A DNA stretch of 64,000 bases from Oceanicaulis sp. HTCC2633 (GTDB taxonomy: Bacteria; Pseudomonadota; Alphaproteobacteria; Caulobacterales; Maricaulaceae). A program made the position numbers and the translations under genes. Location of the stretch: positions 2,323,425 to 2,387,424 of the forward strand of contig NZ_CH672428.1 of NCBI RefSeq assembly GCF_000152745.1, written 5' to 3'. Below the pieces are notes generated by a model that was not told the DNA's origin, did not search any database, and saw nothing but the letters and a program-made list of their open reading frames with translations. This document shows positions 32,631 to 51,872 of this stretch, piece after piece. Every line of letters begins with the position of its first letter. Positions within the stretch are counted from its first letter, which is position 1.

Positions 32631-33023
32631 ATGAAGGCTTGCATTCCGCTTGGGGCTCAGAACGCTGCTAACTACATAATTATTAATCGCTATCTGGCGA
32701 TCTTTCATATGTGAAAGTCGCAAAAATAAGCTTCTTCAATTGTAGGGGCAGTCCTTCGGCTTGATACAATCGCTACTAGGCGATTGCCTCAGCGCAGCAG
32801 CATCACCCAGCTCATAATTTTCAAGAGAAGGCCATGTATGAAGTTGGGATTTCACGCTTAGCGCATCCGGAAATATGCCTAATTCAAGAACGATTATTCG
32901 TAAGAAAGCTCTTCTCTTGTGCTGCAACACGTCAAACTAAATAACGCCCGCTATCTGCTAAGTCAGCTTCCGGGATGAACCGGCAGTAGGCCCCATCAGC
33001 TTAGGTATTGATGAAGTGATGAT

Positions 33024-34253: not shown

Positions 34254-34561
34254 ATCAGTCGTCCAAACTCTTCAACAGGTTCAATCCAGTAAGCGATTTG
34301 TCGACGCGGACAGCGCGCAGCGACTGTATCGAGAATGGTCTCAACGTCTCCGCGCGGCAGGATCATCAGGAACTGCACGGCCTGCATCGCGCCGCGCACG
34401 CGTTCGCCCGCGCTGGCGAGATGCATGTCAGCACCCCGCCCTTCACAGGGCAGCATGGTGTAGCCGGGGACGGCGTCTGTCAGATCATCCAGAATGTCAG
34501 CCAGGGCTGTTTTGATGTCGCGTGGACAGACAAGGCTTAGCTTGCATAGGGACGGACCCAT
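34250..34561 (-). CDS. DUF3240 family protein
   Basis: A 103-residue soluble protein of DUF3240, a small PII-like fold family found beside heavy-metal RND pumps. Family traits seen are the start KLSLVCPRDIKTALADILDD and the later VQFLMILPRGDVETILDTV. Its start lies inside the end of the pump gene (25-base overlap), so expression is coupled. Probable role: cytoplasmic metal or nucleotide sensing for the pump; not shown for this protein. Confidence 0.8.
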   Translation of the reverse strand: MGPSLCKLSLVCPRDIKTALADILDDLTDAVPGYTMLPCEGRGADMHLASAGERVRGAMQAVQFLMILPRGDVETILDTVAARCPRRQIAYWIEPVEEFGRLI

Positions 34562-37647: not shown

Positions 37648-37649
37648 GT

Positions 37650-38744
37650 CTAGCCGCCTTCAAGCTGGTTCTTGAGCGCCGCCAGCCCTGAAACGGCGAC
37701 CTGATCGCCTTCAGTCACCGGTCCCGGTTCAACCGTCACAGCGTCGCGCGTTCTGGTCAGAACCCGAACAGCGACGGCCTGGAAGGCTTCGCCCCGGTCA
37801 ACAAACACATGATCTTCGCCCGCCAGCCTGACGATGGCTCGGGCGGGAAGGCTCAGCCCCTGGCGCTCCCCGGCCACAGGCAGCAGCACATCAATCAAAG
37901 AGCCGGGGCGTCCGTTCACGCCTGTGGGCAAGGCCACATGCACCGTCACAGCCCGGCGGGCGGGATCGATCATGGTATCAACCGCCACGATCTGACCGGT
38001 CCCTGATTGGCCGGGGACGCGAACTCCCCCCCCTTCAGACAAACCATCAGACAGGCGGGCAGGCACATGAAGCCGCGCCCAGACTGCATCGTCGGTATTG
38101 ATCGCGAAAATGACGGCGCCTTCTTCCAGGCGAAAACCGGGCTCTGTGTTGATCTCGGCCAGCACGCCATCTGCAGGCGCGCGCACCAGAAACTGACCAG
38201 CCACCGAGCGAGCCTCGAAAGCGCCAAAGCGGGCGCGCATTGCATCCAGTTCCAGGCGGGTCGAGGTCGCCGTCAGACGACGCTCATGCAGGTCCTCGCC
38301 TGTTGTCAGGCCGGCTTCGAGCAGCGCTTCAGCGCGCTGCGCCAGCTCCTGCGCATGCTCGGCTTCCAGTCCGAGAACGTCCAGCTGCGCGCGGAGCTCC
38401 TCAAGACCCGGGCTGGAGAGGACCTGGACAGGATCGTCAGCCGACACCCTTTGCCCAGGCAGGACCAATGTCTCGGCGACAATCATTGTCGCCGGCGCAA
38501 CGACAGCGCGCCGCGATTGCGGCGGCACAACAATCTCCCCTGTCAGGATCACGCCGTCGGCCGTCATGGCGGATCTCGCTTCCACCGTTTCGATGCCGAG
38601 GCCCAGACGAGACGCCGGAGAAATCGGGACGGAGTTTGACGGGGCTTGCGCATGTGCGGTGATTGAAACCGGCGCCAGCACAACAGCGACAATCAGCCCG
38701 CGCAAAGTTCGTCCAGAACAAGCCAGAACGCTAGCAAGGCACAT
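37650..38744 (-). CDS. RND periplasmic adaptor (CzcB/CusB type)
   Basis: About 364 residues from ATG at 38744, preferred over the GTG at 38762 because a GGAG-rich stretch precedes it. An N-terminal signal (LRGLIVAVVLAPVSITAHA, cleaved near AHA/QA), a lipoyl half-motif (VLPGQRVSADDPVQV), a helical hairpin (about 115-185), the second lipoyl half (VRAPADGVLAEIN) and beta-barrel domains are visible. First gene of the pump operon, 106 bases after the histidine kinase stop. No His-rich metal-binding N-terminus is seen. Confidence 0.87.
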   Translation of the reverse strand: MCLASVLACSGRTLRGLIVAVVLAPVSITAHAQAPSNSVPISPASRLGLGIETVEARSAMTADGVILTGEIVVPPQSRRAVVAPATMIVAETLVLPGQRVSADDPVQVLSSPGLEELRAQLDVLGLEAEHAQELAQRAEALLEAGLTTGEDLHERRLTATSTRLELDAMRARFGAFEARSVAGQFLVRAPADGVLAEINTEPGFRLEEGAVIFAINTDDAVWARLHVPARLSDGLSEGGGVRVPGQSGTGQIVAVDTMIDPARRAVTVHVALPTGVNGRPGSLIDVLLPVAGERQGLSLPARAIVRLAGEDHVFVDRGEAFQAVAVRVLTRTRDAVTVEPGPVTEGDQVAVSGLAALKNQLEGG

Positions 38745-38850
38745 GAAACTTCTTCTCCACACCGCTCAAGCGCGACCCGTCCTTTGACGGGCGACACACC
38801 CAGCGTGCGACGCGGAGCTGACGCGAAGCTGACAGGTCTGATTTCGAGGA

Positions 38851-39852
38851 TCAGTCTTGAGGCGGGAGGCTGCGATTGAACCGGATTCTGAGCCCCGTTT
38901 CTTCAGGGCGGCAAGTTTCAAGCTCGCCGTCATGGGCTTCTGCAATCCGGTCCGCAATCGCCAACCCGAGGCCGGCGCTGCCTGTAGCCCCCTGGTCCGC
39001 GCGGACTCCACGGGCCTTGAAGCGCTCAAGCGCGGACGCATCAAGTCCGGCGCCGCCATCGAGCACCGTGACTTGCGCCCCGGGGCCCGCTCGGACGACA
39101 ACCTCTCCACCAGCCGGGGTTTCGCGCAAAGCGTTGTCCACCAGGGTTCTCAAGGCGCTGGCAAGCGCTTCCTCAAGGCCACAGATTCGCACCGGCCCCG
39201 CATCTTCATAGGAAAGCGATTTCCCGTCATGGATGGCGCGGGGCGCAAGATCGGCGACAACTCGCTTGCCCAGTGCATCCAGATCAACCGGATTTTGGCC
39301 GCCCGGATTATTGGATCGGGCGAGCAGCAGAAGCTGGTCAATCAGTGCAGACAATGCATGGACCTGCGCCTTCAGGGCGACCGCGGTGTCCTGGGGCAGA
39401 CGGTCAAGCTCCAGCGCCAGAACCGAAAGCGGCGTCTTGAGCTCATGCGCCGCGTCTGCCGCGAAGGCTTCCTGCTGGCGCGCATGGCGGTCCAAACGGT
39501 CTGTCAAACGATTGACCGCTTCAGCGAAAGGGTGGATTTCACGTGGCAACGCCTCGAGCGGCGCCTGAAAAGCTTCGCCGCGCGTGCTGGCTTCATTGGC
39601 CAGGTCCGCCACCGTCTTGAGCCGCCGCGCCGCCGCGTTGATCACAAGAATGCTGCCCGCCATGGACAGGCCGACAAAGACCAGCAGCGGGATCACGACA
39701 TGCTCCAGGATCTCGGTCAATGTGGCGTTCAACGGCGGCGGCGTGCGGGAGAAAAACCCGTACTCCAATCCCACAAGCACAATGAGCACCAGCGCCCCAA
39801 TGAAGGCGCTGACCAGGAAACCGGAAACGAGCATGCGGCGCACAGAGGTCAA
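38851..39852 (-). CDS. OmpR-group sensor histidine kinase (metal efflux regulator)
   Basis: A 333-residue kinase with two membrane segments (about 10-32 and 50-75), a short periplasmic loop between them, a HAMP-like linker, the phosphorylated His in FAADAAHELKTPLSVL, an N-box (LRTLVDNALRETP) and a G-box (GSAGLGLAI). The likely start is a TTG overlapping the regulator's TGA by four bases; GTG or ATG slightly downstream are alternatives. The small sensor loop and neighbouring genes suggest it senses periplasmic metal. Confidence 0.88.
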   Translation of the reverse strand: MTSVRRMLVSGFLVSAFIGALVLIVLVGLEYGFFSRTPPPLNATLTEILEHVVIPLLVFVGLSMAGSILVINAAARRLKTVADLANEASTRGEAFQAPLEALPREIHPFAEAVNRLTDRLDRHARQQEAFAADAAHELKTPLSVLALELDRLPQDTAVALKAQVHALSALIDQLLLLARSNNPGGQNPVDLDALGKRVVADLAPRAIHDGKSLSYEDAGPVRICGLEEALASALRTLVDNALRETPAGGEVVVRAGPGAQVTVLDGGAGLDASALERFKARGVRADQGATGSAGLGLAIADRIAEAHDGELETCRPEETGLRIRFNRSLPPQD

Positions 39853-40520
39853 TTTGCGACCTCCCCGAGATAATAGCCCACGCCGCGCACCACATGGATC
39901 AGTCCTCCCGCCCCGGCGTCCGCGAGGCGACGGCGCAGGCGTGAAGCCGTGGCTTCCAGAGCATTCGCACTGACAGCATCATCCCAGCTGTAAAGCGCGG
40001 TCTCGATCGCTTCCCGCGGGACCACCGCATCGGGTCGTTTCATGAGGACTTCAAGCAAGGCCGCTTCCCGCCGCCCCAGGCGCAAGGGCGCGTCCTTGAA
40101 CCGGGCCTCGCGCGCCGCCGGATCAAACGTCAGCTCGCCCACCTCGATCCGTGCAGGCTCTCGAGCGCCGGGCCGCCGCAACAAGGCGCGCAGCCGGGCG
40201 GCGATCTCATCAGGATCTGCCGGTTTGACCATGTAGTCATCCGCCCCGGCGTCGAGGCCGATGATCCGCTCGCCCACACTGGCGCGCGCCGTCAGCACCA
40301 GCACCGGCGCATGAAGGGCCGGCAAAGATTTCAGCCAGTCCACTCCATCGCCGTCCGGCAGGCCAAGATCCAATACAAGGACATCGTATGCGGTCACGGC
40401 GATGTGGTCCGCCGCGCTGGTCAAAGACCCCGCCACATCACAACTGAACCCACGTCGGGTCAGCCCCTCTGCGAGCAGGAGTGACAGCCGGTCATTATCT
40501 TCGATTATCAACACCCGCAT
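39849..40520 (-). CDS. OmpR-family response regulator (metal efflux regulator)
   Basis: A 223-residue regulator: receiver with Asp in VLVLDLGLPDGDG (about 51), Lys in MVKPADPDE, and a C-terminal winged helix (LGRREAALLEVLMKRP ... HVVRGVGYYLGE). It is the first gene of the regulator-kinase pair ahead of the RND pump genes, similar in layout to CusRS and CzcRS, and is expected to activate the pump operon. Confidence 0.9.
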   Translation of the reverse strand: MRVLIIEDNDRLSLLLAEGLTRRGFSCDVAGSLTSAADHIAVTAYDVLVLDLGLPDGDGVDWLKSLPALHAPVLVLTARASVGERIIGLDAGADDYMVKPADPDEIAARLRALLRRPGAREPARIEVGELTFDPAAREARFKDAPLRLGRREAALLEVLMKRPDAVVPREAIETALYSWDDAVSANALEATASRLRRRLADAGAGGLIHVVRGVGYYLGEVAN

Positions 40521-40640
40521 CAGACCATCCTACAGGGCTAACTGTAAAACGCGTAATGTGTGCAGACTAGCTGACGCGAACCTGACTTTGGGTATTTCCC
40601 GGAGAGAGCCGAGCACCACTCGGCTCATGATTGGAGCCGG

Positions 40641-41270
40641 TCACGGTTTGCGCCCCACATAATCGATGAGGGCGGACATTCCAGAGTGCCCCATACCTTC
40701 GTGGATGACGCAATCATGCGCGCTCAGCATGAGGACGTCCAAGCCTGACAGCTCTGACTTGAGCAATTGCTCGGTATAGAGGTTCTCTTCTTGTGGCGGG
40801 CCGCCGGTGCCATACGCTAATTGTTCCGTCCTGTAGCCTTGAACCACCAAAAGCCCACCGGGTTTCAGAGACGCAATCGCGTCCTTAAACAGTCGCCGTC
40901 TCACCTCTGGTCCCGCAAACTGGATGAAGATCGCAACAACGGCGTCATACTGGTTTTGCGGCCAGCGCCAGTTGATTAAATCGGCCTGCTCAAACTCAAT
41001 GGAAACATCAGCTTGCTCCGCCAAGACTCTCGCCTTCTCTAGGGCGATCTTGGATCCATCCACCGAGTGAACATGATGGCCCTGTTTTGCGAGCCAAACC
41101 CCATTTCGCCCTTCACCATCGGCGAGCGCCAAGATCCTGGATTGCTCGGGCAACTGGTCGGCGACGCGAACCAGGAAGTCATTCGGCGCAGTCCCATAGA
41201 CATACTCGTCTGTTCTGAAACGTTCGTCCCACATGCGAATAGCTTGAGACATTTGAGAGTTTTCTGACAT
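40641..41270 (-). CDS. Class I SAM-dependent methyltransferase (TehB-like)
   Basis: A 209-residue cytoplasmic methyltransferase. ILALADGEGRNGVWLAKQGH is the SAM-binding motif I, followed by VDGSKIALEKA and, later, LKPGGLLVVQGY. The start MWDERFRTDEYVYGTAPNDFL is typical of a group related to tellurite/thiol methyltransferases. The acceptor is unknown; among metal and sulfur genes, methylation of a metalloid or thiol is a reasonable guess. Confidence 0.75.
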   Translation of the reverse strand: MSENSQMSQAIRMWDERFRTDEYVYGTAPNDFLVRVADQLPEQSRILALADGEGRNGVWLAKQGHHVHSVDGSKIALEKARVLAEQADVSIEFEQADLINWRWPQNQYDAVVAIFIQFAGPEVRRRLFKDAIASLKPGGLLVVQGYRTEQLAYGTGGPPQEENLYTEQLLKSELSGLDVLMLSAHDCVIHEGMGHSGMSALIDYVGRKP

Positions 41271-41304
41271 TGCTTGGCAGTCTAGCTGTTGGAATGAGGG
41301 GTGA

Positions 41305-41757
41305 TCAGTCTTCTGACGGTGTCACGCGATAGCTGCCGTGACAGCTTGTGCAATTGCTGAGCGTCATGGCCAACTGATCCAGAGCAACACCCATAGGAGT
41401 CTCGTCGGAGAGTTCTGACAGAGAAGCGAGATCGCGATTGAGAGACCGGCTGATCTGCCGGAACCCATCCGGCATATGAGTTTGCATGGACCGTGTCGCT
41501 GGGTCATGCGCGGTGCTGCTGAGCTGGTCCGCCACTTCCCTAAACCAATCGAGATCGTCATTGGCCGCCGCTTCGGTCATCGCCTGAACGCCCGACAGCA
41601 AGTCCAGCATACGAGATCTGACATGGGCTTGCTCCGCTTGTGTCAGATCAATCGCTATTCTGGGGTCTGAGTAATCATCTTGCGCCACAGCGTATTGGGG
41701 ACTGATAGCGACCAGGGTCAGTGCGCTCAGCAGACCATATGCCAGATGGATTTTCAT
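41305..41757 (-). CDS. Periplasmic cytochrome c'-like protein
   Basis: A 150-residue exported haem protein: signal peptide (cleaved near YAVA/QDD), a four-helix-like body, and one haem site CTSCH near the C-terminus (LSNCTSCHGSYRV), the layout of cytochrome c'. Such proteins bind NO in the periplasm. It follows the DsrE-like gene by 17 bases in one unit, behind a putative NsrR-type site. An electron-carrier role in sulfide oxidation is an alternative. Confidence 0.75.
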   Translation of the reverse strand: MKIHLAYGLLSALTLVAISPQYAVAQDDYSDPRIAIDLTQAEQAHVRSRMLDLLSGVQAMTEAAANDDLDWFREVADQLSSTAHDPATRSMQTHMPDGFRQISRSLNRDLASLSELSDETPMGVALDQLAMTLSNCTSCHGSYRVTPSED

Positions 41758-41774
41758 GTTTCGGCTCCGCTCGG

Positions 41775-42215
41775 TCAGAATGTGAACAAGCGGGTGTTTG
41801 GCGCCATCATCACATTAGAGATCTCAGGCGGAGTGGCGACGCTTACGCCTTCGAGCAAGTCGTCTTGGGTCGCTTCACTATTGGGCAGGTAGATCGCACA
41901 CACCTGTACTTGGACTCCATCGGCCATAAGCCCTTCCAGCATTGAGCGCGGCGAAAACCCTCGAGGCTGCATGGGTTGTGTAGAGGTTTCAGGGGCTTCA
42001 CGCAGCGCCAGATCGCCCGCACTATCGCACAGAAGAATACGCGCTTGAGATCCTTCAGCGAGGCTGGCACGTGTGAGGATCAGAGACATAAGCTGTGTCT
42101 GGGGCTGATCGCTCGTCAGAATGGTCAACAAATCAGGCGCTAAAGACTCTGATTGAGCTTGGGTGGGCATTGCGACGCCCAGCATGGCGATGGCGGCGAT
42201 TACAAGTGTGCGCAT
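41775..42215 (-). CDS. Exported DsrE/DsrF-like protein
   Basis: A 146-residue protein with a signal peptide (MRTLVIAAIAMLGVAMPTQAQ) and a DsrE/peroxiredoxin-like fold (ILTSDQPQTQLMSLILTRASL; MLEGLMADGVQVQVCAIYLPN). The Cys in VCAIYLP is in the place of the active Cys of the family. Probable role in handling sulfur or persulfide in the periplasm. First gene of the unit with the cytochrome c'-like gene; a 23-bp inverted repeat lies 85-107 bases upstream. Confidence 0.7.
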   Translation of the reverse strand: MRTLVIAAIAMLGVAMPTQAQSESLAPDLLTILTSDQPQTQLMSLILTRASLAEGSQARILLCDSAGDLALREAPETSTQPMQPRGFSPRSMLEGLMADGVQVQVCAIYLPNSEATQDDLLEGVSVATPPEISNVMMAPNTRLFTF

Positions 42216-42299
42216 GACGCAGCTCCATTGAGATTGAGAAGCTCCAAATTCGCAATGGGATGCAGGAGCTTATTTGAGGGTTACAAAGTACCACATAAT

Positions 42300-42322
42300 A
42301 AGTAGTATTCAATATACGAGTT
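42300..42322. promoter_or_regulatory. NsrR-like inverted repeat, site A
   Basis: Half-sites AAGTAGTAT and (reverse) AACTCGTAT around a 5-base centre, 23 bp in all, in the divergent region between the DsrE-like gene (minus) and the ferritin-like gene (plus). It matches sites at 50015-50037 and 50908-50930. Confidence 0.6.
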
Positions 42323-42438
42323 TATGGTATGAACCGTTGCTTGCAGGTATAACGGCGCTCGAGCAGGCTCGGCCGCTTCCGTGAAGAGCAAGACCCAAGG
42401 TTCCAAATATTAACCGCCGCTACATAAGGATAAGCACA

Positions 42439-42912
42439 ATGAATGAGACTGATCTGGGCCAGTCTGTTCCGCCCCCTCATCAAGCTCGGGAGCATCTGAC
42501 ACCGCTTCAAATAAACGCGCTTTCGTTCGCACTGGAAGATGAGCGCAAAGCTTATAAAACTTACGGGCTCATACTTGATCGGTTTCCTGGCCAGCGTCCT
42601 TTTGTGAATATTATTGAGGCTGAGAACCGCCACATCGAAGCGCTTCTTAGGCTTTATCAAAAATTTGATCTGGAAGTTCCGGTCGATAGGACGCAACCAG
42701 ACCCTTCGGCCCTTACGGCCTCATTGCAGGATTTATGCGCCATAGGCGTCAAATCAGAGCGCGATAATGTCAGGCTCTTTGATACGGTGTTGATCCCTGC
42801 AGCAGGCGACAATCATGAGATTGTCGGGGTGTTCACAAAGTTGCGTGACGCCTCAGCGCATAGACATCTGCCCGCATTTGAGCGTTGTTTAGAGCGACGA
42901 AACTGCCGCTAA
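42439..42912 (+). CDS. Ferritin-like domain protein (DUF2202-like)
   Basis: A 157-residue soluble protein, probably a helical bundle. FALEDERKAYKTYGLIL and IIEAENRHIEALLRLYQKF give the E and ExxH spacing of the first half of a ferritin-like di-iron site; a His-containing helix (ASAHRHLPAFERCL) is near the end. AAGGA lies eight bases before the ATG. It diverges from the DsrE-like gene, with site A between them, and its end overlaps that of the convergent SulP gene by four bases. Iron or peroxide handling is the family-level guess. Confidence 0.65.
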   Translation: MNETDLGQSVPPPHQAREHLTPLQINALSFALEDERKAYKTYGLILDRFPGQRPFVNIIEAENRHIEALLRLYQKFDLEVPVDRTQPDPSALTASLQDLCAIGVKSERDNVRLFDTVLIPAAGDNHEIVGVFTKLRDASAHRHLPAFERCLERRNCR

Positions 42913-44636
42913 TCCACTGCCTGAGCCGTCGTCAACGCATCCCAGGCGTCAAACTGAGACAGATAGATCTTTCCTGAGAGCGCCTCTAGGAAATGGCTTG
43001 AGCGCATCTTGTCCATGACAGGTCCCTTCACCTCGGACAGATGCAGGCGCACTCCCATACCCTTTAAACGCGCATCAAGCGCTTCAAGTGTCTCCATTGC
43101 CGAGTAATCGAGATCATTGACGGCGGAAAACATCAAGACGATGTCACGAATATCGTCGCCGTCGCGTGCGAGGCGGTCAAGAACCAGTGACTCCAGAAAG
43201 TTCGCATTGGCAAAGTACAGGCTCTCATCAACCCGCAGCGTCAGAAGCGACGGTGATGTTTCGACCTCATGGCGCAGTATATTGCGGAAATGATGCGTGC
43301 CTGGAACCAGCCCCACTTCGGCGATATGCGGTTTGGAGGTCTTGGTGATGTGCAGCAATAGAGAGAGTATGACGCCAGAAGCCACCCCGACCTCAACGCC
43401 CAGTCCCAGTGTTAGAATGATCGTGACGGCAACAGCCAAGAAGTCTGATTTTGAGTAGCGCCAGGTCGACTTCAGGATTGAAAAATCAACCAGGCTGAGG
43501 ACCGCAACAATAATCGTCGCCGCCAAGGTGGCCTTGGGCAGGAAGTACACAAGAGGCGTCAAAGAGACCGCGGCGATAGCGAGGCCAATGGCGGTAAAGG
43601 CGCCGGCGGCCGGTGTCTCTGCGCCTGCATCAAAATTGACCACAGAGCGGGCGAAGCCACCCGTCACGGGATACCCGCCAGTAAACGCAGCGCCGAGATT
43701 GGCGGCGCCGAGCCCGATGAGTTCCTGATCGGGATCTATGCGCTGACGTTTCTTAGCCGCCAGCGTCTTGGAGACCGAGACAGACTCCACAAAGCCGATA
43801 ATCGAAATCAGGACAGCCGGTATGAACAAAGCGCGAATGATCTCCGGGGACCAGTCCGGCAAGGTCAGCGGTGGCAGCGCTTGAGGAACGGCGCCCACCA
43901 GATCGACGCCCTTGTCCTCGAAGTTTAGCCCCCACGCCAGACCTGTCGTCGCTGCGACAGCTAAAACCGGCCCGGCCTTGGTCAGGATGTCAGACAAACG
44001 CGCATTGAGACCCAAGGCTCGCAGGGCGGGTTTCATGCCCTTTCGGACCCAGAACAAAAAACCGATCCCAAAGACGCCAATCGCCAAGGTGATCAGGTTG
44101 GTCTCATGAAGGTGGCTGATCAAAGACGCGCCCAGTTCAAGCAGCGAATGCCCCTCCGCCGAGACGCCCAGGACGTGCTTGAACTGACTGGCGGCGATCA
44201 GAATCCCCGATGCTGTGATGAAGCCGGAAATCACAGGGTGGCTTAGAAAGTTTGCAAGAAAGCCAAGCCTGAAAAGGCCCATAATCACCAGAAAGGTGCC
44301 AGACAAAAACGCCAAGGTGAGGGCTGCAGCGGCGTATCCCGCGGTCCCTTGTTCGACCACCTGCCCGATGGCGGACGCGGTCAGAAGTGAGACGACAGCC
44401 ACCGGTCCCACGGCTAGGGCGCGGCTGGTTCCAAAAACAGCATAGAGCATAATGGGAACGATGGACGCGTAGATCCCGGCTTCTGGCGGGAGGCCCGCCA
44501 GAAGCGCATAGGCGAGCGATTGCGGGATGAGCATGATCGTGACGATCACAGCCGCAATCAGATCATTTGAGAGCGCTGTGCGGTTATATGCACGCCCCCA
44601 GCTCAGGATCGGGAAATACTGCTTGAAACGGTCCAT
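42909..44636 (-). CDS. SulP-family anion transporter with STAS domain (island copy)
   Basis: About 575 residues from ATG at 44636 (MDRFKQYFPILSWGR), with the same architecture as the core copy at 15493-17214 and long identical stretches, for example ASAIGQV, LIGLGAANLGAAFTGGYPV and LHLSEVKGPVMDK. A GTG at 44663 would add nine residues. Membrane domain about 25-430, STAS about 440-570. It lies downstream of the sulfide-oxidation-like genes on the same strand, where export or uptake of sulfate, sulfite or thiosulfate is plausible. Confidence 0.87.
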   Translation of the reverse strand: MDRFKQYFPILSWGRAYNRTALSNDLIAAVIVTIMLIPQSLAYALLAGLPPEAGIYASIVPIMLYAVFGTSRALAVGPVAVVSLLTASAIGQVVEQGTAGYAAAALTLAFLSGTFLVIMGLFRLGFLANFLSHPVISGFITASGILIAASQFKHVLGVSAEGHSLLELGASLISHLHETNLITLAIGVFGIGFLFWVRKGMKPALRALGLNARLSDILTKAGPVLAVAATTGLAWGLNFEDKGVDLVGAVPQALPPLTLPDWSPEIIRALFIPAVLISIIGFVESVSVSKTLAAKKRQRIDPDQELIGLGAANLGAAFTGGYPVTGGFARSVVNFDAGAETPAAGAFTAIGLAIAAVSLTPLVYFLPKATLAATIIVAVLSLVDFSILKSTWRYSKSDFLAVAVTIILTLGLGVEVGVASGVILSLLLHITKTSKPHIAEVGLVPGTHHFRNILRHEVETSPSLLTLRVDESLYFANANFLESLVLDRLARDGDDIRDIVLMFSAVNDLDYSAMETLEALDARLKGMGVRLHLSEVKGPVMDKMRSSHFLEALSGKIYLSQFDAWDALTTAQAVD

Positions 44637-44742
44637 GGTCCTAAAGGCCTTATAGTCCGACACGCGAGCCGCCGGTGTCGGGCCCAGCGGCTCTGTCTGC
44701 GGTCAGACGAATGGGTATGGGGATTGGCGGAGCATTCGCCGC

Positions 44743-46422
44743 TCAGCTTTCGGAGACCAGTAGCGGCTCGGGCTTGGCCAGCCATTCCTTGCCCTTGAGC
44801 ATGGCTTGCCAATAGATCGGCGGAAGCATCTTTTCTTTCAGGAACCAGGCGCCGCGGGTCGGCTTGGTTCCATCGAGCGCCCAGGCAGGAAATGATGGCT
44901 TTAACACGCCGCCATAGCCGAACTCGGCGAGGACGATCTTGCCCCGTTCAACGGTGAGTGGGCATGAGCCGTAGCCGTCATACGCCGCGGTGGGCGACCG
45001 ACCGGCAATATCCGCCATGATGTTCTCCGCCACTGTCGGCGCCTGCTTGCGCGCGGCGGCAGCCGTCTTCGCGTTGGGCGCATTCATCACATCGCCCAGC
45101 GACCAGATGTTCTCATAGGTCTTATGGCGCAGCGTCGCCTGATCCACATCAACCCAACCCGCAGCGTCCGCCAGGGGAGACACACGGATAAAGTCGGGCG
45201 CCACTTGAGGCGGACAGACATGAAGCATGTCGAAATCCTTGGTGACTTCATGCGCTTCTATATCTGGACCGGTGACCTTGAACGTCGCTGTTTTCTGAGG
45301 GCCATCGACGGATATGAGCTGGTGGAAGAAATTCAGGCTTGCGCGGTATTTCTCGACGTATTCCATCAAGGCCGGCACATAGTCCTTCACGCCGAAGAGC
45401 ACGCCTCCGGCCGTCATGAACTCAATGTCGATAGTGTTCAAAACGCCCCGCCGGAACCAGGCGTCGCTCGATAAATACATCGCCTTTTGAGGCGCGCCGG
45501 CGCATTTGATCGGCATGGGCGGTTGCGTTAAGATCGCCCGCCCCTTGTCGAGCGCTTTCACGAGCTGCCACGTATAGGGCGCGAGATCGTACCGATAGTT
45601 TGAGGTCACGCCATTACGGCCCAGCGTCTCCTCAAGGCCGTCTATCTGAGCCCAGTCGAGTTTCAGTCCGGGGCAAACGACGAGCCGATCATACTTCACG
45701 ACCCGGCAGCCATCGAGAATGACGGCATTGTTGTCGGGCTCAAAGGCGGCGACAGCGGCCTTGATCCATGTCACGCCTTTGGGGATCAGGCTGCCCATGG
45801 TCTTGGCGGTTTGGTTCGCCTTGAAGACGCCGCCGCCCACCATGGTCCAGCCAGGCTGGTAATAATGGATGTCGGCGGGATCAATGATGGCGATGGAGAG
45901 ATCTGATGAGCGCGCCTTCAAACTGGCCGCCACAGAAATCCCGCCCGCTCCGGCTCCCACAATCACGACATCATATTGCGCGTCACCGGTCTCAGTTGGC
46001 GTTTTGCCATTGTTCAAGATGCGGCGCGCCACGCCGTTCATGTCGTAGCCAGCTGCCTTGGTGGCGGCCAGTATTTCAGGTAAGGGTCGCTTCTTGGCTT
46101 CGTGAAAGGACCACAAGCTGGCCGATCGCGTGCCTGTGCGGCAATAGGCCAGAACCGGTCGTGGCAAATCCTTCAGTGCTGCGCCAAAGTCGGCGACGTC
46201 CGTGTCCGTTACCAGCCCCGCTTTGACGGGCACATATTGCGCCATGATGCCCTGCGCCGCTGCAGCAGCTTGGATTTCCTCAAATCCAGGTTGATCAACG
46301 CCCTCACCATCGGGGCGATTGCAGATGATGGCCCGGAATCCTGCTTCCTTGATGGCGGGGATATCTGTAGCCAGGATTTGAGGGCTGACCGCGAACTTCT
46401 CTGTTATTTTGTTGATTTGCAT
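44743..46422 (-). CDS. Fusion of DUF442 (TIGR01244) phosphatase-like domain and sulfide:quinone-oxidoreductase-like flavoprotein
   Basis: A 559-residue fusion. Residues 1-110 are the DUF442/TIGR01244 domain with a phosphatase-like loop YCRTGTRSASLW. Residues about 148-559 are an FAD enzyme of the SQR family (YDVVIVGAGAGGISVAASL; later WSLGDVMNAPNAKTAAA). One SQR cysteine is present in PIKCAGAPQKAMYLSS. The second, usually in the GDxC/GDAC region, is not there (GDVMNAPN), while extra cysteines occur in VVCPGLKLDW and HVCPPQVAP. It may oxidise sulfide to persulfide with quinone, feeding the hydrolase encoded 12 bases upstream. Activity needs testing because of the missing cysteine. Confidence 0.85.
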   Translation of the reverse strand: MQINKITEKFAVSPQILATDIPAIKEAGFRAIICNRPDGEGVDQPGFEEIQAAAAAQGIMAQYVPVKAGLVTDTDVADFGAALKDLPRPVLAYCRTGTRSASLWSFHEAKKRPLPEILAATKAAGYDMNGVARRILNNGKTPTETGDAQYDVVIVGAGAGGISVAASLKARSSDLSIAIIDPADIHYYQPGWTMVGGGVFKANQTAKTMGSLIPKGVTWIKAAVAAFEPDNNAVILDGCRVVKYDRLVVCPGLKLDWAQIDGLEETLGRNGVTSNYRYDLAPYTWQLVKALDKGRAILTQPPMPIKCAGAPQKAMYLSSDAWFRRGVLNTIDIEFMTAGGVLFGVKDYVPALMEYVEKYRASLNFFHQLISVDGPQKTATFKVTGPDIEAHEVTKDFDMLHVCPPQVAPDFIRVSPLADAAGWVDVDQATLRHKTYENIWSLGDVMNAPNAKTAAAARKQAPTVAENIMADIAGRSPTAAYDGYGSCPLTVERGKIVLAEFGYGGVLKPSFPAWALDGTKPTRGAWFLKEKMLPPIYWQAMLKGKEWLAKPEPLLVSES

Positions 46423-46434
46423 CAGATATGCCCC

Positions 46435-47316
46435 CTAAAGCCCGTTAACGGGAAGTTTGAGCATAGGTCTGCCATCCTTATCTGTGGGCATCTCACCGGC
46501 CCGCATATTGACCTGCAAAGACGGCAGAATGAGTTGCGGAACCGCAAGAGTTGCATCGCGTTCGGTCCGAAACTTGACGAAATCCTCCTTCGTCTTGCCG
46601 CCTCCCACATGGATGTTATGGGCTTTCTGGTCCGCGACCGTGCTTTCCCAAAGAATCTCGCGACCATTCGGGCCATAATCATGACACATGAAGAGCCGCA
46701 TCTCGTCGGGCAGGCTCAGGATGCGCTGAATGGAATCATAAAGCGTGCCTGCATCGCCGCCCGGAAAATCCGCGCGTGCAGAACCCGCGTCCGGCATGAA
46801 GATCGTGTCGCCTACAAACGCGGCGTTTCCGAAAACATGGACAGTACAGGCTGGCGTGTGGCCAGGGGTATGCATGACGAAGGCTTGCAGGCCGCCAACC
46901 TGGTAGGTGTCGCCATCTTCGAAGAGAGCATCGAACTGGCTGCCATCGCGCTCAAACTCGGTGCCTTCGTTGAAGACCTTTCCGAAGGTCTCCTGCACAA
47001 TCTTGATGTCAGCGCCTATGCCAATTTTACCGCCCAGTCGCTCTTGCAGATAAGGGGCTGCAGACAGATGGTCGGCGTGAACATGGGTCTCGATGATCCA
47101 CTCAACTTTTAGCCCTTGAGATTGAACATAGTACGCAATCTGATCCGCATGCTCATAGGCGATGCGGCCCGATGCCTGATCGAAATCCATGACGCTGTCG
47201 ATAATCGCGCAAGCGGATGACGTGGGGTCTTTGACGACATAGCTGATGGTGTTGGTCGCCTCATCAAAGAACGCTTTGACGTCTGGCTTGACCTCCAGCT
47301 TTACAGGGTACTGCAT
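46435..47316 (-). CDS. Metallo-beta-lactamase-fold hydrolase (persulfide dioxygenase / Blh-like)
   Basis: About 293 residues from ATG at 47316, which has a perfect GGAGG five bases upstream; a reading from 47334 adds six residues but loses this. Metal ligands are clear: THVHADH, HTPGHTPA, VGDTIF and CHDYGP. The length and the insertion before the last His resemble persulfide dioxygenases (ETHE1/Blh group), which oxidise glutathione persulfide to sulfite. It lies just before the SQR-like gene; the two would convert sulfide to sulfite. Blh proteins are also linked to biofilm and H2S control with BigR. Confidence 0.88.
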   Translation of the reverse strand: MQYPVKLEVKPDVKAFFDEATNTISYVVKDPTSSACAIIDSVMDFDQASGRIAYEHADQIAYYVQSQGLKVEWIIETHVHADHLSAAPYLQERLGGKIGIGADIKIVQETFGKVFNEGTEFERDGSQFDALFEDGDTYQVGGLQAFVMHTPGHTPACTVHVFGNAAFVGDTIFMPDAGSARADFPGGDAGTLYDSIQRILSLPDEMRLFMCHDYGPNGREILWESTVADQKAHNIHVGGGKTKEDFVKFRTERDATLAVPQLILPSLQVNMRAGEMPTDKDGRPMLKLPVNGL

Positions 47317-47395
47317 TGCTTCCTCCGATTTCATGCGCCTGGTTTTTCACAAGGCTTTGCATGGCATTTAGGGTTTTGAACTTGGACACCGGGCG

Positions 47396-47539
47396 CTAGA
47401 GAAAGAGTTTGATGATCCCGCCCAGGACCGTCACAGTGAGCACGCCAGCGGCCCAGAGCCCGACGAACCAGGCGAGTTCACGCAATCCGGTTTGCCTCAC
47501 GCCCGTGTCCTGAGCATTGCGCGTTGGATCTTTGAGCAT
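47396..47539 (-). CDS. DUF2474 small membrane subunit of CioAB-type oxidase
   Basis: A 47-residue peptide (start MLKDPTRNAQDTGVRQTG) with one membrane segment (LAWFVGLWAAGVLTVTVLGG). Its ATG overlaps the TGA of the bd oxidase subunit II gene (TGATG). DUF2474 peptides sit after cyanide-insensitive oxidase genes and are thought to stabilise the complex, as CydX does in E. coli. Easily missed because of size. Confidence 0.85.
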   Translation of the reverse strand: MLKDPTRNAQDTGVRQTGLRELAWFVGLWAAGVLTVTVLGGIIKLFL

Positions 47540-48540
47540 CAGTGATACCCCTCCGCCGGATCGACCTTGCCGCGGAACACCCAGTAAGCGTACGCGGTGT
47601 AAGCCAGGATCATGGGCAGCAGGATGAGCGCCCCTACCAGCATGAACATCAAGCTTGAGTCCGGCGCTGCTGCCTCACGAATGGTAATGGCGCGGGGCAC
47701 CACATAAGGGGCAATTCCGATGCCCAGCCCACCAAAGCACAATCCGAAAAGAGCAATCGCGCTAGGGAACGGCGCCCAGTCCTTTTTGGACCACAGACCC
47801 CAGAGCAGGATCGCAGCCGCGAGAGCGGTGAGCGTTGGAACAGGCAGGACGTAGAGTAAGCGCGGGAAGGTGAACCAGCGCTCCGCGATGTCGGGAGAGA
47901 GAAAGGGCGTCCACAGGCTCACAAGACCAATAAAACCCAAAGTCGCTAAGGCTGCCAGTCTGGCGAGGCGATAGGCTTGGTCGCGCAACTCGCCTTCGGT
48001 TTTCATCACAAGCCAGGTCGAGCCCAGCAAGCCGTAGCCGGCGGTCAGCGCGACACCGCAGGCCAGCGAGAAGGGCGTGAACCAGTCAAACCATCCGCCT
48101 GCATAGGCCCGGCCCTCAACTTCGATGCCCTGAACGAACGCCCCAAGCACAACGCCTTGAGAAAAGGTTGCAAGCAAAGATCCGAAGAAGAAGGCGCGAT
48201 CCCAGATTTTTTGATGGGCCACGTCCCGCCAGCGGTACTCAAATGCGACCCCGCGAAAGACAAGCGCAAGGATCATCGCGATGAATGGGGCGTAAAGCGC
48301 CGGCATAACGATGGAGTAGGCCAGCGGGAAGGCGGCGAAGAGGCCGCCGCCGCCCAAGATCAGCCAGGTTTCATTTCCGTCCCAGACAGGCGCGACGGAA
48401 TTCATCGCCACATTGCGATCCTGATCGGTCTTCAGGAAGGGGAATGACAGCCCAACGCCCAAGTCAAAACCGTCAAGCACGATGTAGATAAAGATGGCGA
48501 GCGCAAGAAGTCCCGCCCAGATTTCAGGTAATCCAATCAT
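47539..48540 (-). CDS. cydB: Cytochrome bd-type quinol oxidase subunit II
   Basis: A 333-residue membrane protein with about eight or nine helices. Characteristic stretches are YIVLDGFDLGVG at the start and VWDGNETWLILGGGGLFAAFPLAY. It pairs with subunit I (gene ends nine bases upstream) to reduce oxygen with quinol. With the DUF2474 peptide this marks the CioAB branch, which resists cyanide, sulfide and NO. That fits the sulfide- and NO-related neighbours. Confidence 0.93.
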   Translation of the reverse strand: MIGLPEIWAGLLALAIFIYIVLDGFDLGVGLSFPFLKTDQDRNVAMNSVAPVWDGNETWLILGGGGLFAAFPLAYSIVMPALYAPFIAMILALVFRGVAFEYRWRDVAHQKIWDRAFFFGSLLATFSQGVVLGAFVQGIEVEGRAYAGGWFDWFTPFSLACGVALTAGYGLLGSTWLVMKTEGELRDQAYRLARLAALATLGFIGLVSLWTPFLSPDIAERWFTFPRLLYVLPVPTLTALAAAILLWGLWSKKDWAPFPSAIALFGLCFGGLGIGIAPYVVPRAITIREAAAPDSSLMFMLVGALILLPMILAYTAYAYWVFRGKVDPAEGYH

Positions 48541-48549
48541 GATGACCTC

Positions 48550-49953
48550 CTACTCGGCCGGGAATGCTTTGGGGTCGAGACCAGCCGCTGGCGTGGTGCC
48601 CGCAGAGCGGATGGGTTTGCCGTGCTGCTCTTCAGCCTGAGCCGGTCCTGCCCTCATCAGTCTGAGGATGTACAGCGTGCCGGCGCCAAAGATCGCGAAG
48701 TAGACGATTACGAAGGCGATTAGAGAGGCTGCGACCGCTGGCGCCGCCACTGGCGCGATCGACTCGCCCGTCGTGAGCAGGCCATAGACCGTGAAGGGCT
48801 GACGCCCGACTTCTGTAGTCACCCAACCCGCTAGCACCGCGATAAACCCGCTGGGACCCATCACAAGGGCGGCTTTGTGAAACAGGCTGTTCTCGTAAAA
48901 CTTGCCACGCCAGCGCAGGAAGAGGCTGATCGCACCCAGAGCCGCCATAGCGAGACCGATCCCAACCATGATCCGGAAGCTCCAGAAGACGATCACCACG
49001 GGAGGGCGTTGATCGGCGGGCACATCGGTCAAGCCTGGTGTTTCGCCATCCCAATGGTGAGTCAGGATCAAGGCGGACAATCCTGGAATGCCGATTTCAA
49101 AATGATTTTCCTCGGCTTCTTGGTCCGGGATGCCGAACAAGATGAGGGGGGCTCCGGTCTGGCGCTCCCAATGGCCTTCCATCGCCGCCACTTTGATCGG
49201 CTGATGTTCGAGCGTGTTAATGCCGTGCATGTCGCCGGCGAAGATCTGGATGGGAGCCACGATCGCCGCCATCCACATGGCCATTGAGAACATTTTTCTC
49301 GCTTCGGCGTTGGCGCGATCACGCAGGAGGTGGAATGCGCCCACAGCCCCCACGACAAAAGCCGTGGTGAGGTACGCTGCCAAGGTCATATGGACGAGGC
49401 GATAGGGGAAGGACGGGTTGAAGACGATTTCAAACCAGTTCTCGGGAATGAACTGACCAACCTCATTGATGCTGTAGCCTGCCGGGGTCTGCATCCAGGA
49501 GTTCACCGACAAGATCCACGTCGCAGAGATCAGTGTGCCGAGCGCGACCATGCCTGTGGCGAACAGGTGCAACTTGCGTGACACGCGCTCCATCCCAAAA
49601 AGCATCACGCCCAGGAATCCGGCTTCCAGGAAGAAGGCTGTGAGTACTTCATAGGCCATGAGCGGGCCAATGATCGGTCCGGCTTTGTCAGAGAAGACCG
49701 ACCAGTTCGTACCGAACTGATAAGACATCACAATCCCGGACACGACGCCCATGCCGAAGGCGACAGCGAAAATCTTCATCCAGAATTTGAAAAGGTTGAG
49801 ATAAACCCGATTACCGGTTCTGAGCCATTGAACTTCCAGTACGAACAGGAAGCTCGCGAGCCCGATTGAAAAGGCTGGGAAGATGATATGGAACATCACC
49901 GTGAACGCGAATTGCACGCGCGCGAGGATGGTGGCGTCTAGGGATTCAAACAT
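48550..49953 (-). CDS. cydA: Cytochrome bd-type quinol oxidase subunit I
   Basis: A 467-residue haem-bearing subunit. The N-terminal FAFTVMFHIIFP-like region holds a haem ligand His, and GWVTTEVGRQPFTVYGLLTT is the GRQPF/W signature of subunit I. The protein is shorter than E. coli CydA, fitting a short Q-loop, CioA type. A 23-bp NsrR-like site lies 62-84 bases upstream (50015-50037), so it is probably induced with the stress genes of the island. Confidence 0.93.
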   Translation of the reverse strand: MFESLDATILARVQFAFTVMFHIIFPAFSIGLASFLFVLEVQWLRTGNRVYLNLFKFWMKIFAVAFGMGVVSGIVMSYQFGTNWSVFSDKAGPIIGPLMAYEVLTAFFLEAGFLGVMLFGMERVSRKLHLFATGMVALGTLISATWILSVNSWMQTPAGYSINEVGQFIPENWFEIVFNPSFPYRLVHMTLAAYLTTAFVVGAVGAFHLLRDRANAEARKMFSMAMWMAAIVAPIQIFAGDMHGINTLEHQPIKVAAMEGHWERQTGAPLILFGIPDQEAEENHFEIGIPGLSALILTHHWDGETPGLTDVPADQRPPVVIVFWSFRIMVGIGLAMAALGAISLFLRWRGKFYENSLFHKAALVMGPSGFIAVLAGWVTTEVGRQPFTVYGLLTTGESIAPVAAPAVAASLIAFVIVYFAIFGAGTLYILRLMRAGPAQAEEQHGKPIRSAGTTPAAGLDPKAFPAE

Positions 49954-50014
49954 CGCTGCGAACTCCGCTTGATGTCGGTTGGGTGAACAAGTGTCTCATG
50001 AACTAGAGCCAATT

Positions 50015-50037
50015 AAGTGGCATTCCATATACAACTT
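50015..50037. promoter_or_regulatory. NsrR-like inverted repeat, site B
   Basis: Half-sites AAGTGGCAT and (reverse) AAGTTGTAT around a 5-base centre, 62-84 bases upstream of cydA. Same spacing as sites A and C. The rest of 49,954-50,199 holds no gene I can support. Confidence 0.6.
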
Positions 50038-50199
50038 TCGGCCATAGTGTCGCAGGCCTTGACGGTTTGAAGCTGACAGGACCAGCCCCAGAAGAAGCGT
50101 GCGCATGGCCCCTGTCAGGGCAGGGACATTGTGACTTAGGGCCATGCGCGCCCGGTAGCGGTTCAATCGAGCGGACCTTCGATTGAACCGCCCTCGAGA

Positions 50200-50847
50200 T
50201 CAGCCGAGAGATTTGGTGGAGAAGTACCAATCCACCGTTTCATAGCCTTCAGAGGCGCGGCTCTCGGCGGCGTCGGCGGTGGCCGGCGGCGGCACGATCA
50301 CCTTGTCGCCCGGGGTCCAGGCTTCAGGGGTCGCCACGCCTTCGCTGTCAGAGGTTTGAAGCGCCTGGATGAGGCGAACAAATTCCTCGATCGAGCGGCC
50401 ATTACTCATCGGGTAATAGACCATGGCGCGCAGCACGCCCTCAGGGTCAATGATAAAGGTTGCTCGCACCGCAGCAGTGTTAGAGGCGCCAGGCTGGATC
50501 ATGCCATAAGCGCTCGCCACTTGCATGGAGAGGTCGGCGATAATGGGGAAGCGGACATCAACGCCGAACTTCTCCTTGATGTTCCGCACCCAGGCGATGT
50601 GGGCGTAATGACTGTCGATGGACAGTCCCAGAAGTTCGGTGTTAAGGGCGGCGAACCGGTCCTGAGCCTTGGCGAACGCCATGAACTCTGTGGTGCACAC
50701 CGGGGTGAAATCTGCCGGGTGTGAAAACAGGATCAGCCATTTGCCGCGGTAGTCGGACAAGGACCGCTCACCATGGGTCGTCGGGGCGGTGAAATCGGGC
50801 GCTTTCTCATTCAGGCGCGGGAAGGTGCAGGTTTCAATCTCAGTCAT
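50200..50847 (-). CDS. 1-Cys peroxiredoxin (Prx6 type)
   Basis: About 215 residues from ATG at 50847 (MTEIETCTFPRL), with GGAG six bases upstream; the longer reading from 50880 has none. The peroxidatic Cys is in HPADFTPVCTTEFMAF at about residue 48, and the long C-terminal domain matches the Prx6 subgroup. It removes peroxides or peroxynitrite. A 23-bp NsrR-like site lies 61-83 bases upstream, and the Rrf2 regulator gene is next upstream on the same strand. Confidence 0.92.
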   Translation of the reverse strand: MTEIETCTFPRLNEKAPDFTAPTTHGERSLSDYRGKWLILFSHPADFTPVCTTEFMAFAKAQDRFAALNTELLGLSIDSHYAHIAWVRNIKEKFGVDVRFPIIADLSMQVASAYGMIQPGASNTAAVRATFIIDPEGVLRAMVYYPMSNGRSIEEFVRLIQALQTSDSEGVATPEAWTPGDKVIVPPPATADAAESRASEGYETVDWYFSTKSLG

Positions 50848-50907
50848 TGGGAACTCCATTGTTTGACGCGTTTGGCTCAAAGCCAGTGCGTTATGACGTA
50901 TCCCTTA

Positions 50908-50930
50908 AAGTCGCATATGTCATACTACTT
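50908..50930. promoter_or_regulatory. NsrR-like inverted repeat, site C
   Basis: Half-sites AAGTCGCAT and (reverse) AAGTAGTAT around a 5-base centre, between the peroxiredoxin gene and the end of the Rrf2 regulator gene. It is the most symmetrical of the three sites: both halves match AAGTNGYAT. Confidence 0.65.
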
Positions 50931-50983
50931 ATTTTGATGCAACCTATAGACCCTCTCTATGCCGACCCTAAAGTCTATAAATG

Positions 50984-51427
50984 TTACTGGATTTCGGCGT
51001 CGTTCAAGCGAGAAAGCAGGACGCTGCGGTTGGCGGCGATATCGGCGATCGTGACATCATCTAATACAGCCAGGAAGGCGCGTGTCGCTGTCTGGATAGA
51101 TGCTGAAAGATGGCATACGCCAATGAGCGGGCAGGTGTTTGTTTCTGCATTAAAGCACTCAACAAGCTCCAAAGGCGCTTCAGTAATCCGGATGACCTCT
51201 CCAACCGTGACATCCTCGGCCGGCCTGTTGAGGGTGATCCCACCATTGCGCCCTCGAACAGCCTTGATGAACCCTTCTTTTTCGAGCGTGTTCACTGCTT
51301 TGAGCAAATGATGACGCGAGATGCCATGAGCGCGCGCAACATCCTCGGTACGGATCAGGTTTGGAGCGTGAAGGGCGGCAAACTGTAAAAGTCGCAATGC
51401 AAAATTGGAAAAATTCGTAAGCCTCAA
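50984..51427 (-). CDS. NsrR-like Rrf2-family regulator
   Basis: About 147 residues from a TTG start at 51427 (MRLTNFSNFALRLL, the standard Rrf2 beginning, with AAAGG seven bases before); ATG or GTG readings further upstream lack this fit. It has a winged helix (ISRHHLLKAVNTLEKEGF, VRGRNGGITLNRP) and three cluster cysteines in CFNAETNTCPLIGVC, spacing C-x7-C-x5-C as in Bacillus NsrR. The end LDDVTIADIA also matches NsrR. Residue 8 is Asn where NsrR proteins have the cluster-ligand Asp. It probably senses NO or another reactive species and binds the three 23-bp repeats in the island. Confidence 0.85.
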   Translation of the reverse strand: MRLTNFSNFALRLLQFAALHAPNLIRTEDVARAHGISRHHLLKAVNTLEKEGFIKAVRGRNGGITLNRPAEDVTVGEVIRITEAPLELVECFNAETNTCPLIGVCHLSASIQTATRAFLAVLDDVTIADIAANRSVLLSRLNDAEIQ

Positions 51428-51728
51428 TGGGCAACCTTTCACATGGAGATTGTGTGTCGATAGCGGGGCGTTGAACACAGGGCTTCAACAACAGTACACG
51501 CTTTAGTCAGATGTCGCATTACCGACACTGATCCGCTTCATTCGATATCCTCTGCTCATAACCATACGCGCCCTGGTGAGAGCGAACCGCATCCAATAGG
51601 CCGAGGCGGCTTTTCATACTCCAAGCATTTGGCGGGCGATCTAGGAGGGGCGGAAGTATCGTAGGGGCTTAGGAGTAGATCGCGCTTTGAGATTTTGTGG
51701 GAAAGCTGCCGTGAGTCTTTATGCGCAC

Positions 51729-51746
51729 GTGCTGGGTATGTGCTGG
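51729..51746 (+). repeat. Candidate integrase arm-type site, right end
   Basis: GTGCTGGGTATGTGCTGG, 16 of 18 bases as at 21104-21121, about 50 bases inside the right junction. The interval 51,430-51,795 otherwise holds only the upstream region of the Rrf2 gene; no further gene is supported. Confidence 0.5.
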
Positions 51747-51793
51747 AAAGTGTCAGCGCGCTCGGGCGGATTTGATGTTATGTCATTGAAAAG

Positions 51794-51844
51794 AATGGCG
51801 CACCCATGAGGATTCGAACCTCAGACCTCTGCCTTCGGAGGGCA
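51794..51844. repeat. attR: 51-bp direct repeat inside tRNA-Arg
   Basis: Identical to 20938-20988. This copy is part of the intact tRNA-Arg gene and marks the tRNA-proximal junction of the island. Confidence 0.92.
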
Positions 51845-51872
51845 GCGCTCTATCCAGCTGAGCTATGGGTGC
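51796..51872 (-). tRNA. tRNA-Arg (anticodon CCG)
   Basis: A 77-base tRNA with encoded CCA. The acceptor stem GCACCCA pairs with TGGGTGC, the D-arm contains AGCTCAGCTGGATAGAGC, the anticodon stem CTGCC/GGCAG holds the loop CTCCGAA (anticodon CCG), and the T-arm contains GGTTCGAATCC. The island uses the 3' half of this gene as its attachment site and restores it on integration. Confidence 0.97.

Follow-up and report, generated by a model that had tools for sequence, protein, structure and literature searches.

The 64,000-nucleotide stretch of the Oceanicaulis sp. HTCC2633 genome studied here (contig NZ_CH672428.1, positions 2,323,425 to 2,387,424), referred to as the window, carries an island in which the same 23-bp inverted repeat occurs three times, close to genes for an Rrf2-family regulator, a cytochrome bd oxidase, a peroxiredoxin and predicted sulfide-oxidizing enzymes. 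Which protein acts at these repeats, and to what signal does it respond? A preliminary description of the sequence had proposed an NsrR-like regulon for nitric oxide (NO) defence that travels with the island. Of that interpretation, the shared operator, its NsrR-like architecture and the island were retained, while NsrR identity and NO defence found no support. Comparison of the sequences makes it likely that the repeats are operators of an uncharacterised iron-sulfur (Fe-S) Rrf2 repressor that responds to sulfide or reactive sulfur species (RSS) and controls a mobile sulfide-tolerance module.

The three repeats, with mismatches counted against AAGTNGYAT-N5-ATRCNACTT and scores taken from a motif model trained without the window, are the following.

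42300-42322 (no strand): operator 1, AAGTAGTAT-tcaat-ATACGAGTT, one mismatch, 23.2 bits; between the divergent DsrE-like/cytochrome c' unit and the DUF2202 gene
50015-50037 (no strand): operator 2, AAGTGGCAT-tccat-ATACAACTT, no mismatch, 22.4 bits; 62 bp 5' of cydA
50908-50930 (no strand): operator 3, AAGTCGCAT-atgtc-ATACTACTT, no mismatch, 17.7 bits; between rrf2 and the peroxiredoxin gene prx6

The coordinates, half-sites and common architecture agree with those first described, and so does the location 5' of the DsrE-like/cytochrome c' unit and the DUF2202 gene, of cydA and of prx6; the distances are 61 bp to prx6, 62 bp to cydA, 85 bp to the DsrE-like gene and 116 bp to the divergent DUF2202 gene. 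With up to three mismatches the pattern matched three times in the window; 100 dinucleotide shuffles gave 0.28 matches on average and never more than 2. The three sites were the only matches with up to two mismatches in the whole genome (3,172,051 bases), and there is no abundance of equally good matches at random positions. When three mismatches were allowed, the pattern matched 5 times per strand and a reversed-pattern control 18 times, and a looser pattern with at most one mismatch found the three sites plus one other, with one match for its control. The two additional three-mismatch sites and a site at C1:2386376 are at background level and were rejected as distant targets. Since the consensus had been drawn from these same sites, the mismatch counts alone are circular.

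A blind search for a 23-bp symmetric motif was carried out in loci encoding related Rrf2 proteins (loci and genomes are designated below by L and G numbers). Matches were found in 20 of 61 genomes, the window's own included, at E <= 1e-15, in 20 loci from the species genome collection and in 310 plasmid records at 1e-10. Among 385 genomes of the class, 6 had a match at E <= 1e-35, and two of these six are paralogues with aspartate at residue 8 (Asp8). The search covered 116 regions upstream of module genes from 27 loci, near-duplicates (L042, L045, L050, L055 and L084) having been excluded from training before counting. It returned AAGttaTAT-N5-ATAtaaCTT with a log-likelihood of 237.8, while 100 first-order Markov controls gave a mean of 72.0 and a maximum of 99.5. 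The training set included L079 and L080, later recognised as Asp8 paralogues, and repeating the search without them (25 loci) gave 225.5. With the window left out and the 26 other loci used for training, the three sites ranked first in a 19.5-kb stretch of the window, and the next-best match scored 9.4 bits. Removal of L056, L051, L052 and L031, which lie on the window's side of the family, left the three sites on top (21.1, 21.1 and 15.8 bits; next 11.2). The same model recovered the sites 5' of prx6 in L051 and L052 and failed for L031, where the best match scored 8.9 and was not 5' of a module gene. A loose pattern applied to ten other genomes matched in nine of them, missed the known sites of G011, and had several matches outside the module as well as matches in the controls; it was therefore considered too loose to add distant regulon members.

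The presence of the site was then compared between loci with and without the regulator. A match to sulfide:quinone reductase (SQR) was found in 31 of the 385 class genomes; G000, G255 and G310 carry the regulator, 20 regulator-free genomes were fetched as controls, and eight with the SQR half only or a weaker match lay outside the control set. Each tested locus was left out of training, the two Asp8 rows were removed, and a site was counted at a score of at least 14 bits within 330 bp 5' of a module gene. Such sites were present in 21 of 25 regulator loci and 3 of 20 regulator-free SQR loci (Fisher p = 4.2e-6). The comparison has two biases: only in the positives can rrf2 itself serve as a target, and module genes are fewer in some of the controls (L117, L129 and L131 show SQR alone and L123 is only 5.3 kb long, leaving fewer promoters). 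When rrf2 was dropped as a target the figures were 18/25 and 3/20 (p = 2.3e-4). As the loci share descent, both p values overstate independence. The sites precede different genes in different loci (rrf2, cydA, prx6, DUF2202, blh), and in many related loci one is found 5' of rrf2 itself. The repeat is a shared operator, most likely bound by the neighbouring Rrf2 protein.

The sites could instead belong to a different regulator, with the Rrf2 gene as a passenger. Candidates are an ArsR-family gene, present in 5 of the 14 regulator loci that were scanned for one, and a Crp/Fnr gene, present in L063, L064 and L084, but the site follows Rrf2 and not ArsR, which had a match in 9 of the same 20 control loci and none in the window's 19.5-kb stretch. 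The sites 5' of rrf2 and a covariation between protein and operator also speak against a passenger, which we regard as very improbable. Regulators with the recognition helix xHLLKA (L056, L051, L052, L053, L054, L081) have operators with G at position 6 in 20 of 24 half-sites, whereas with other helices G takes this position in 2 and A in 33 of 44. The comparison covers 22 of the 25 loci (all but L031, L032 and L065), its sites were selected manually among those already listed, and the half-sites that a locus contributes are not independent of one another. Regulators of the xHLLKA type form two groups, which the tree does not place as sisters; the fork separating them has a support of 88/89. 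Modelling of Streptomyces coelicolor NsrR (ScNsrR) on DNA has indicated that Thr41 of this helix would clash if C+6 were replaced by T (PMC9338935); C+6 is the partner of operator position 6. Helix and operator position 6 vary together, which is a correlation and not a proof of contact. In L030, L032, L034 and L062, among the 14 loci scanned, an ArsR-family gene directly adjoins the Rrf2 gene. Two sulfur regulators from different families, one of them possibly akin to BigR/SqrR, may thus control the module there.

The regulator gene adjoins operator 3, as first described.

50984-51478 (minus strand): Rrf2-family regulator (rrf2), GTG-initiated open reading frame of 164 aa, Asn8, C-X7-C-X5-C, Pfam Rrf2

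Homologues suggest, by eye, a TTG start at 51427 and a product of 147 aa. Membership in the Rrf2 superfamily is clear (Pfam PF02082, 109 bits, cut-off 30). Among the characterised NCBIfam subfamilies the best score was that of RirA (132.5 bits, cut-off 193), followed by NsrR (112.3, cut-off 182), CymR (57.1, cut-off 195) and IscR (48.7, far under its cut-off), so that the protein misses the equivalog cut-offs of both RirA and NsrR. The closest solved structure by sequence is that of ScNsrR. The three cysteines are kept as C-X7-C-X5-C across the rows of the regulator's clade. Their spacing had been called NsrR-type, which is inexact, as the NsrR proteins of S. coelicolor and E. coli have X5/X5 and X4/X5, respectively; it was also dropped as a group marker because most Asp8 paralogues examined share X7/X5.

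The groups also differ at residue 8. It is Asn in 29 of the 30 clade rows, Thr in one (L062) and Asp in none, while 25 other rows, E. coli NsrR included, have Asp in 24 cases and Asn in one (L016); three rows missed by the pattern were read by eye. Asp8 is the fourth cluster ligand of NsrR (PMC5411485), and RirA, the iron regulator of Rhizobiales, has Asn8 together with three cysteines (PMC10510648), the combination found here. The clade was defined in advance by similarity and gene context, and a tree of 55 Rrf2 rows, without a bona fide RirA, separates its 30 rows from the rest by a branch with support 97/94 that recurs in 96% of 200 bootstrap trees. Neither the 60 genomes of the order nor the 142 of the class that were searched yielded a protein over the RirA cut-off, and control genomes were under it as well. 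The regulator of L016 (genome G043), outside the clade on a long branch, has an operator-like site 46 bp 5' of its gene. L033, on a contig labelled gammaproteobacterial (a Glaciecola metagenome-assembled genome), encodes a clade member that groups with mainly Paracoccaceae proteins, which reflects either horizontal transfer or mis-binning. The tree supports a distinct Rrf2 clade, mostly of Alphaproteobacteria, without a characterised member.

The operators were also compared with known boxes. The preliminary description had likened the repeats to 23-bp NsrR sites differing at positions 4-5, in agreement with the published NsrR consensus gATGyAT-N5-ATrCATc (PMC1274295): the spacing is equal, but position 4 is T, not A, and position 5 is any base. 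The motif obtained from promoters of the Asp8 paralogues is NsrR-like, its fourth base being A and its sixth G (log-likelihood 158.9 vs a maximum of 53.4 in 40 controls). The RirA IRO motif, TGA-N9-TCA (PMC8822346), was absent, by eye, from the three sites. The repeats follow the general NsrR/Rrf2 architecture, and their distinction rests on positions 4-6, the regulator clade and the gene context. The regulator shares with NsrR the fold, the three cluster cysteines and a 23-bp 9-5-9 operator with similar ends, and differs in residue 8, operator positions 4-6, a gene set for sulfide and not NO, and a score under the NCBIfam cut-off. Identity with NsrR was rejected on residue 8, score and gene context, and the regulator is probably not NsrR. 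With RirA it shares Asn8, the three cysteines and its best subfamily score; it lies 60 bits under the equivalog cut-off, has a different operator and has no iron-uptake genes among its annotated neighbours. Identity with RirA was rejected on the score and the operator.

What the signal might be was judged from the genes that the operators precede and from their neighbours.

50200-50847 (minus strand): 1-Cys peroxiredoxin, Prx6 type, prx6 (Pfam and NCBIfam)
48550-49953 (minus strand): cydA, cytochrome bd subunit I (Pfam)
47539-48540 (minus strand): cydB, cytochrome bd subunit II (Pfam and NCBIfam)
47396-47539 (minus strand): 47-codon open reading frame, found by eye, in the place taken by DUF2474 genes 3' of cydB in homologous loci (L062, L065)
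46435-47334 (minus strand): persulfide (sulfur) dioxygenase of the ETHE1/Blh type, MBL fold (NCBIfam Blh, 389 bits over the dioxygenase half)
44743-46422 (minus strand): fusion of a TIGR01244/DUF442-like sulfurtransferase with a type III-like SQR (NCBIfam)
42909-44663 (minus strand): SulP-family anion transporter with STAS domain (Pfam and NCBIfam)
42439-42912 (plus strand): DUF2202 ferritin/rubrerythrin-like protein (Pfam)
41775-42215 (minus strand): DsrE-like protein (predicted fold) with a probable signal peptide (by eye)
41305-41757 (minus strand): cytochrome c'-like protein with C-terminal CxxCH (PF01322, 23.0 bits, under the cut-off of 26.5)
40641-41270 (minus strand): SAM-dependent methyltransferase, with homologues near the regulator in several related loci

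The genes cydA, cydB, the small reading frame, blh, sqr and sulP are co-directional, with cydA first, a layout from which we infer one operon. The NCBIfam Blh model describes a two-domain protein and has a cut-off of 625; the dioxygenase here lacks the fused sulfurtransferase domain. In the fusion protein the TIGR01244 score (131 bits) is over its cut-off and that of SQR III (212 bits) is under its cut-off of 525. The DsrE-like protein has no Pfam match; its AF2 model, built from six sequences, has a mean pLDDT of 83.4, and Foldseek matched it to YchN (1jx7, 1.3e-06) and DsrE (3pnx, 1.6e-06). The cytochrome c' of the preliminary description exists as a gene with a CxxCH motif, and its family label is sub-threshold.

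Genes for cydAB, Prx6, the Blh/ETHE1-type dioxygenase, the sulfurtransferase-SQR fusion, SulP, the methyltransferase and the DsrE-like protein recur near related regulators in many of the loci, although the set is incomplete in some loci and only a few are present in, for example, L035 and L039. Among six plasmid neighbourhoods, YeeE/YedE thiosulfate transporter genes were found in four and rhodanese genes in five. Cytochrome bd oxidases resist sulfide. In the bigR system Blh keeps respiration going in the presence of sulfide (PMC5823870), and a cyanobacterial peroxiredoxin is able to reduce elemental sulfur (PMC9426444). Our best guess is that the signal is sulfide or reactive sulfur.

Several observations weigh against a sulfide-responsive Rrf2 repressor acting at these operators. 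Four regulator loci lack a 14-bit site (L030, 13.5; L032, 11.9; L065, 10.2; L031, nothing of at least 10 bits), and three controls have one (L116, 14.0; L122, 16.2; L134, 14.0). A scan of the region found no sigma-70-like promoter with which the operators could overlap. The window sites score 17-21 bits under the model of the NsrR-type paralogues, and the architecture alone does not identify the binder. The D8A variant of ScNsrR loses DNA binding and keeps its sensitivity to NO (PMC5411485), so that Asn8 argues for a labile, RirA-like cluster without excluding NO. Cytochrome c' and bd oxidase also fit NO, while Prx6, the DUF2202 protein and the Dps and bacterioferritin genes of plasmid loci L063 and L084 fit peroxide or iron stress equally well.

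Part of this evidence, together with the three cysteines and the proximity to the ScNsrR structure, would suit an NsrR-type NO sensor running an NO-defence regulon of cytochrome c' and bd oxidase, as had been proposed. Such a sensor is nevertheless improbable, given that Asp8 is missing from the whole clade, that the NsrR score lies under its cut-off and that sulfide and persulfide genes dominate the neighbourhoods. In addition, tblastn searches with E. coli Hmp, Hcp and YtfE and with group III truncated haemoglobin gave no match in the 30 clade loci (12-24 kb each); the searches did not extend to NnrS, NorB or genes at a distance. In contrast, loci of related paralogues, most of which span only 3.4 kb, have group III truncated haemoglobin in 11 of 24 cases, nearly all Asp8 (10 of 23 if the source of the query is set aside), and YtfE in one. 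The Asp8 Rrf2 genes that lie beside this haemoglobin are those of L014, L015, L022, L023, L024, L028, L080, L082, L083, L136 and L137; the promoters of these loci carry, as a set, an NsrR-like box, which is missing in L015 and L136.

A general regulator of Fe-S, iron or redox stress, RirA- or IscR-like, could also be considered. Loss of its cluster would report iron starvation or oxidants, and the sulfide genes would respond indirectly. The RirA score and Asn8 agree with such a regulator, as do the peroxiredoxin and ferritin-like protein in the regulon and the two plasmid loci with Dps and bacterioferritin. It is made unlikely by the score being under the RirA cut-off and by the operator being unlike TGA-N9-TCA; moreover, no siderophore or iron-uptake gene is among the annotated features of the six plasmid neighbourhoods, and the presence of only three sites in the genome does not fit a global regulator.

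For the sulfide-responsive repressor we propose the following mechanism. An Rrf2 dimer would bind each 23-bp palindrome: operator 3 before prx6, operator 2 before the apparent operon cydAB-blh-sqr-sulP, and operator 1 between dsrE/cytochrome c' and the divergent DUF2202 gene. Judging from its analogues NsrR and RirA, it would probably act as a repressor that binds DNA when it carries an Fe-S cluster on the three cysteines. Because the fourth ligand of NsrR is missing, as in RirA, this cluster should be labile. Sulfide or RSS, or the Fe-S or redox damage that they cause, would disable the protein, and its loss would turn on SQR, the persulfide dioxygenase, SulP, the sulfide-resistant bd quinol oxidase, the peroxiredoxin and the sulfur-carrier proteins.

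The regulon lies on an island of patchy distribution, and the earlier view that it travels with this island was borne out by the features that delimit it.

20938-20988 (no strand): left end, 51 bp identical to the 3' end of tRNA-Arg
51794-51844 (no strand): right end, second copy of the 51 bp, at the 3' end of tRNA-Arg(CCG) 51796-51872
21071-22387 (plus strand): tyrosine integrase (Pfam Phage_integrase, 77 bits)

The exact repeats, the tRNA-Arg(CCG) and the integrase define a tRNA-targeted integrative element of 30.9 kb (20938-51844). Its G+C content in 2-kb steps is 0.49-0.64 (from 20 to 52 kb), compared with 0.58-0.68 outside. In the congener G014 the island is absent from the 44.3 kb compared, and the window was matched only from 51795 onward. 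A clean empty site in G014 was rejected, as synteny begins exactly at the tRNA and the other flank is unlike the window. In G007 (79 kb compared), 26412-29072 and 32962-51797 are present at 90-92% identity; about 37.6 kb of other DNA separate the island core from the tRNA-Arg flank, which suggests tandem integration. Within the genus, 4 of 15 genomes (G000, G007, G011 and G012, counting that of the window) have a match to the regulator at E <= 1e-15. The copies of G011 and G012 group with that of Marinicauda salina, a member of another genus, and not with the window's (support 97/83). Related modules are found on plasmids, and two of the six examined were typed as mobilizable. Also on the island are a serine recombinase gene (24790-26835), genes for a C5-cytosine methylase and an adjoining HATPase protein (29300-32388), and RND efflux genes (33024-38762) with a neighbouring response regulator and histidine kinase, read by eye (38851-40520).

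How does this system relate to those known to sense sulfide? The named dedicated sulfide or persulfide repressors SqrR, BigR, PigS and CstR belong to the ArsR and CsoR families, and OxyR, OhrR and PerR are named in titles as other sulfur-responsive regulators. The bigR operon contains the same kinds of genes (Blh-type dioxygenase, sulfurtransferase domain, anion/sulfite transport), but BigR and SqrR are of another protein family with another operator, and the module described here has its sulfurtransferase joined to SQR and additionally includes cydAB, Prx6 and DsrE; no ArsR match that could be a local BigR lies in the 19.5-kb stretch of the window. Within the Rrf2 family, the cysteine regulator CymR has part of its regulon repressed by sulfide in Staphylococcus aureus, where sulfide also changes another Rrf2 gene (PMC5480029). 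CymR shares the Rrf2 fold and a link to sulfur metabolism and differs in its regulon and in the low score of the present protein under its model. Titles and abstract openings among the matches listed from the open-access literature mention no Rrf2 regulator of a sulfide module, and a review on reactive sulfur (PMC9774590) makes no mention of Rrf2 in its main text.

The regulator may be an Rrf2 repressor that has kept an NsrR-like operator but serves a different task. A wider proposal, which we advance tentatively, is that the clade is a new Rrf2 subfamily that senses sulfide or RSS through an Fe-S cluster held by three cysteines and lacking NsrR's fourth ligand, and that it serves in Alphaproteobacteria as the self-contained, horizontally moving switch of a module for sulfide oxidation and sulfide-proof respiration. 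If this is true, control of such modules by an Rrf2 Fe-S protein would represent a sulfide-sensing chemistry different from that of the ArsR and CsoR families, and one small mobile regulon would join sulfide detoxification, the choice of terminal oxidase and defence against peroxide.

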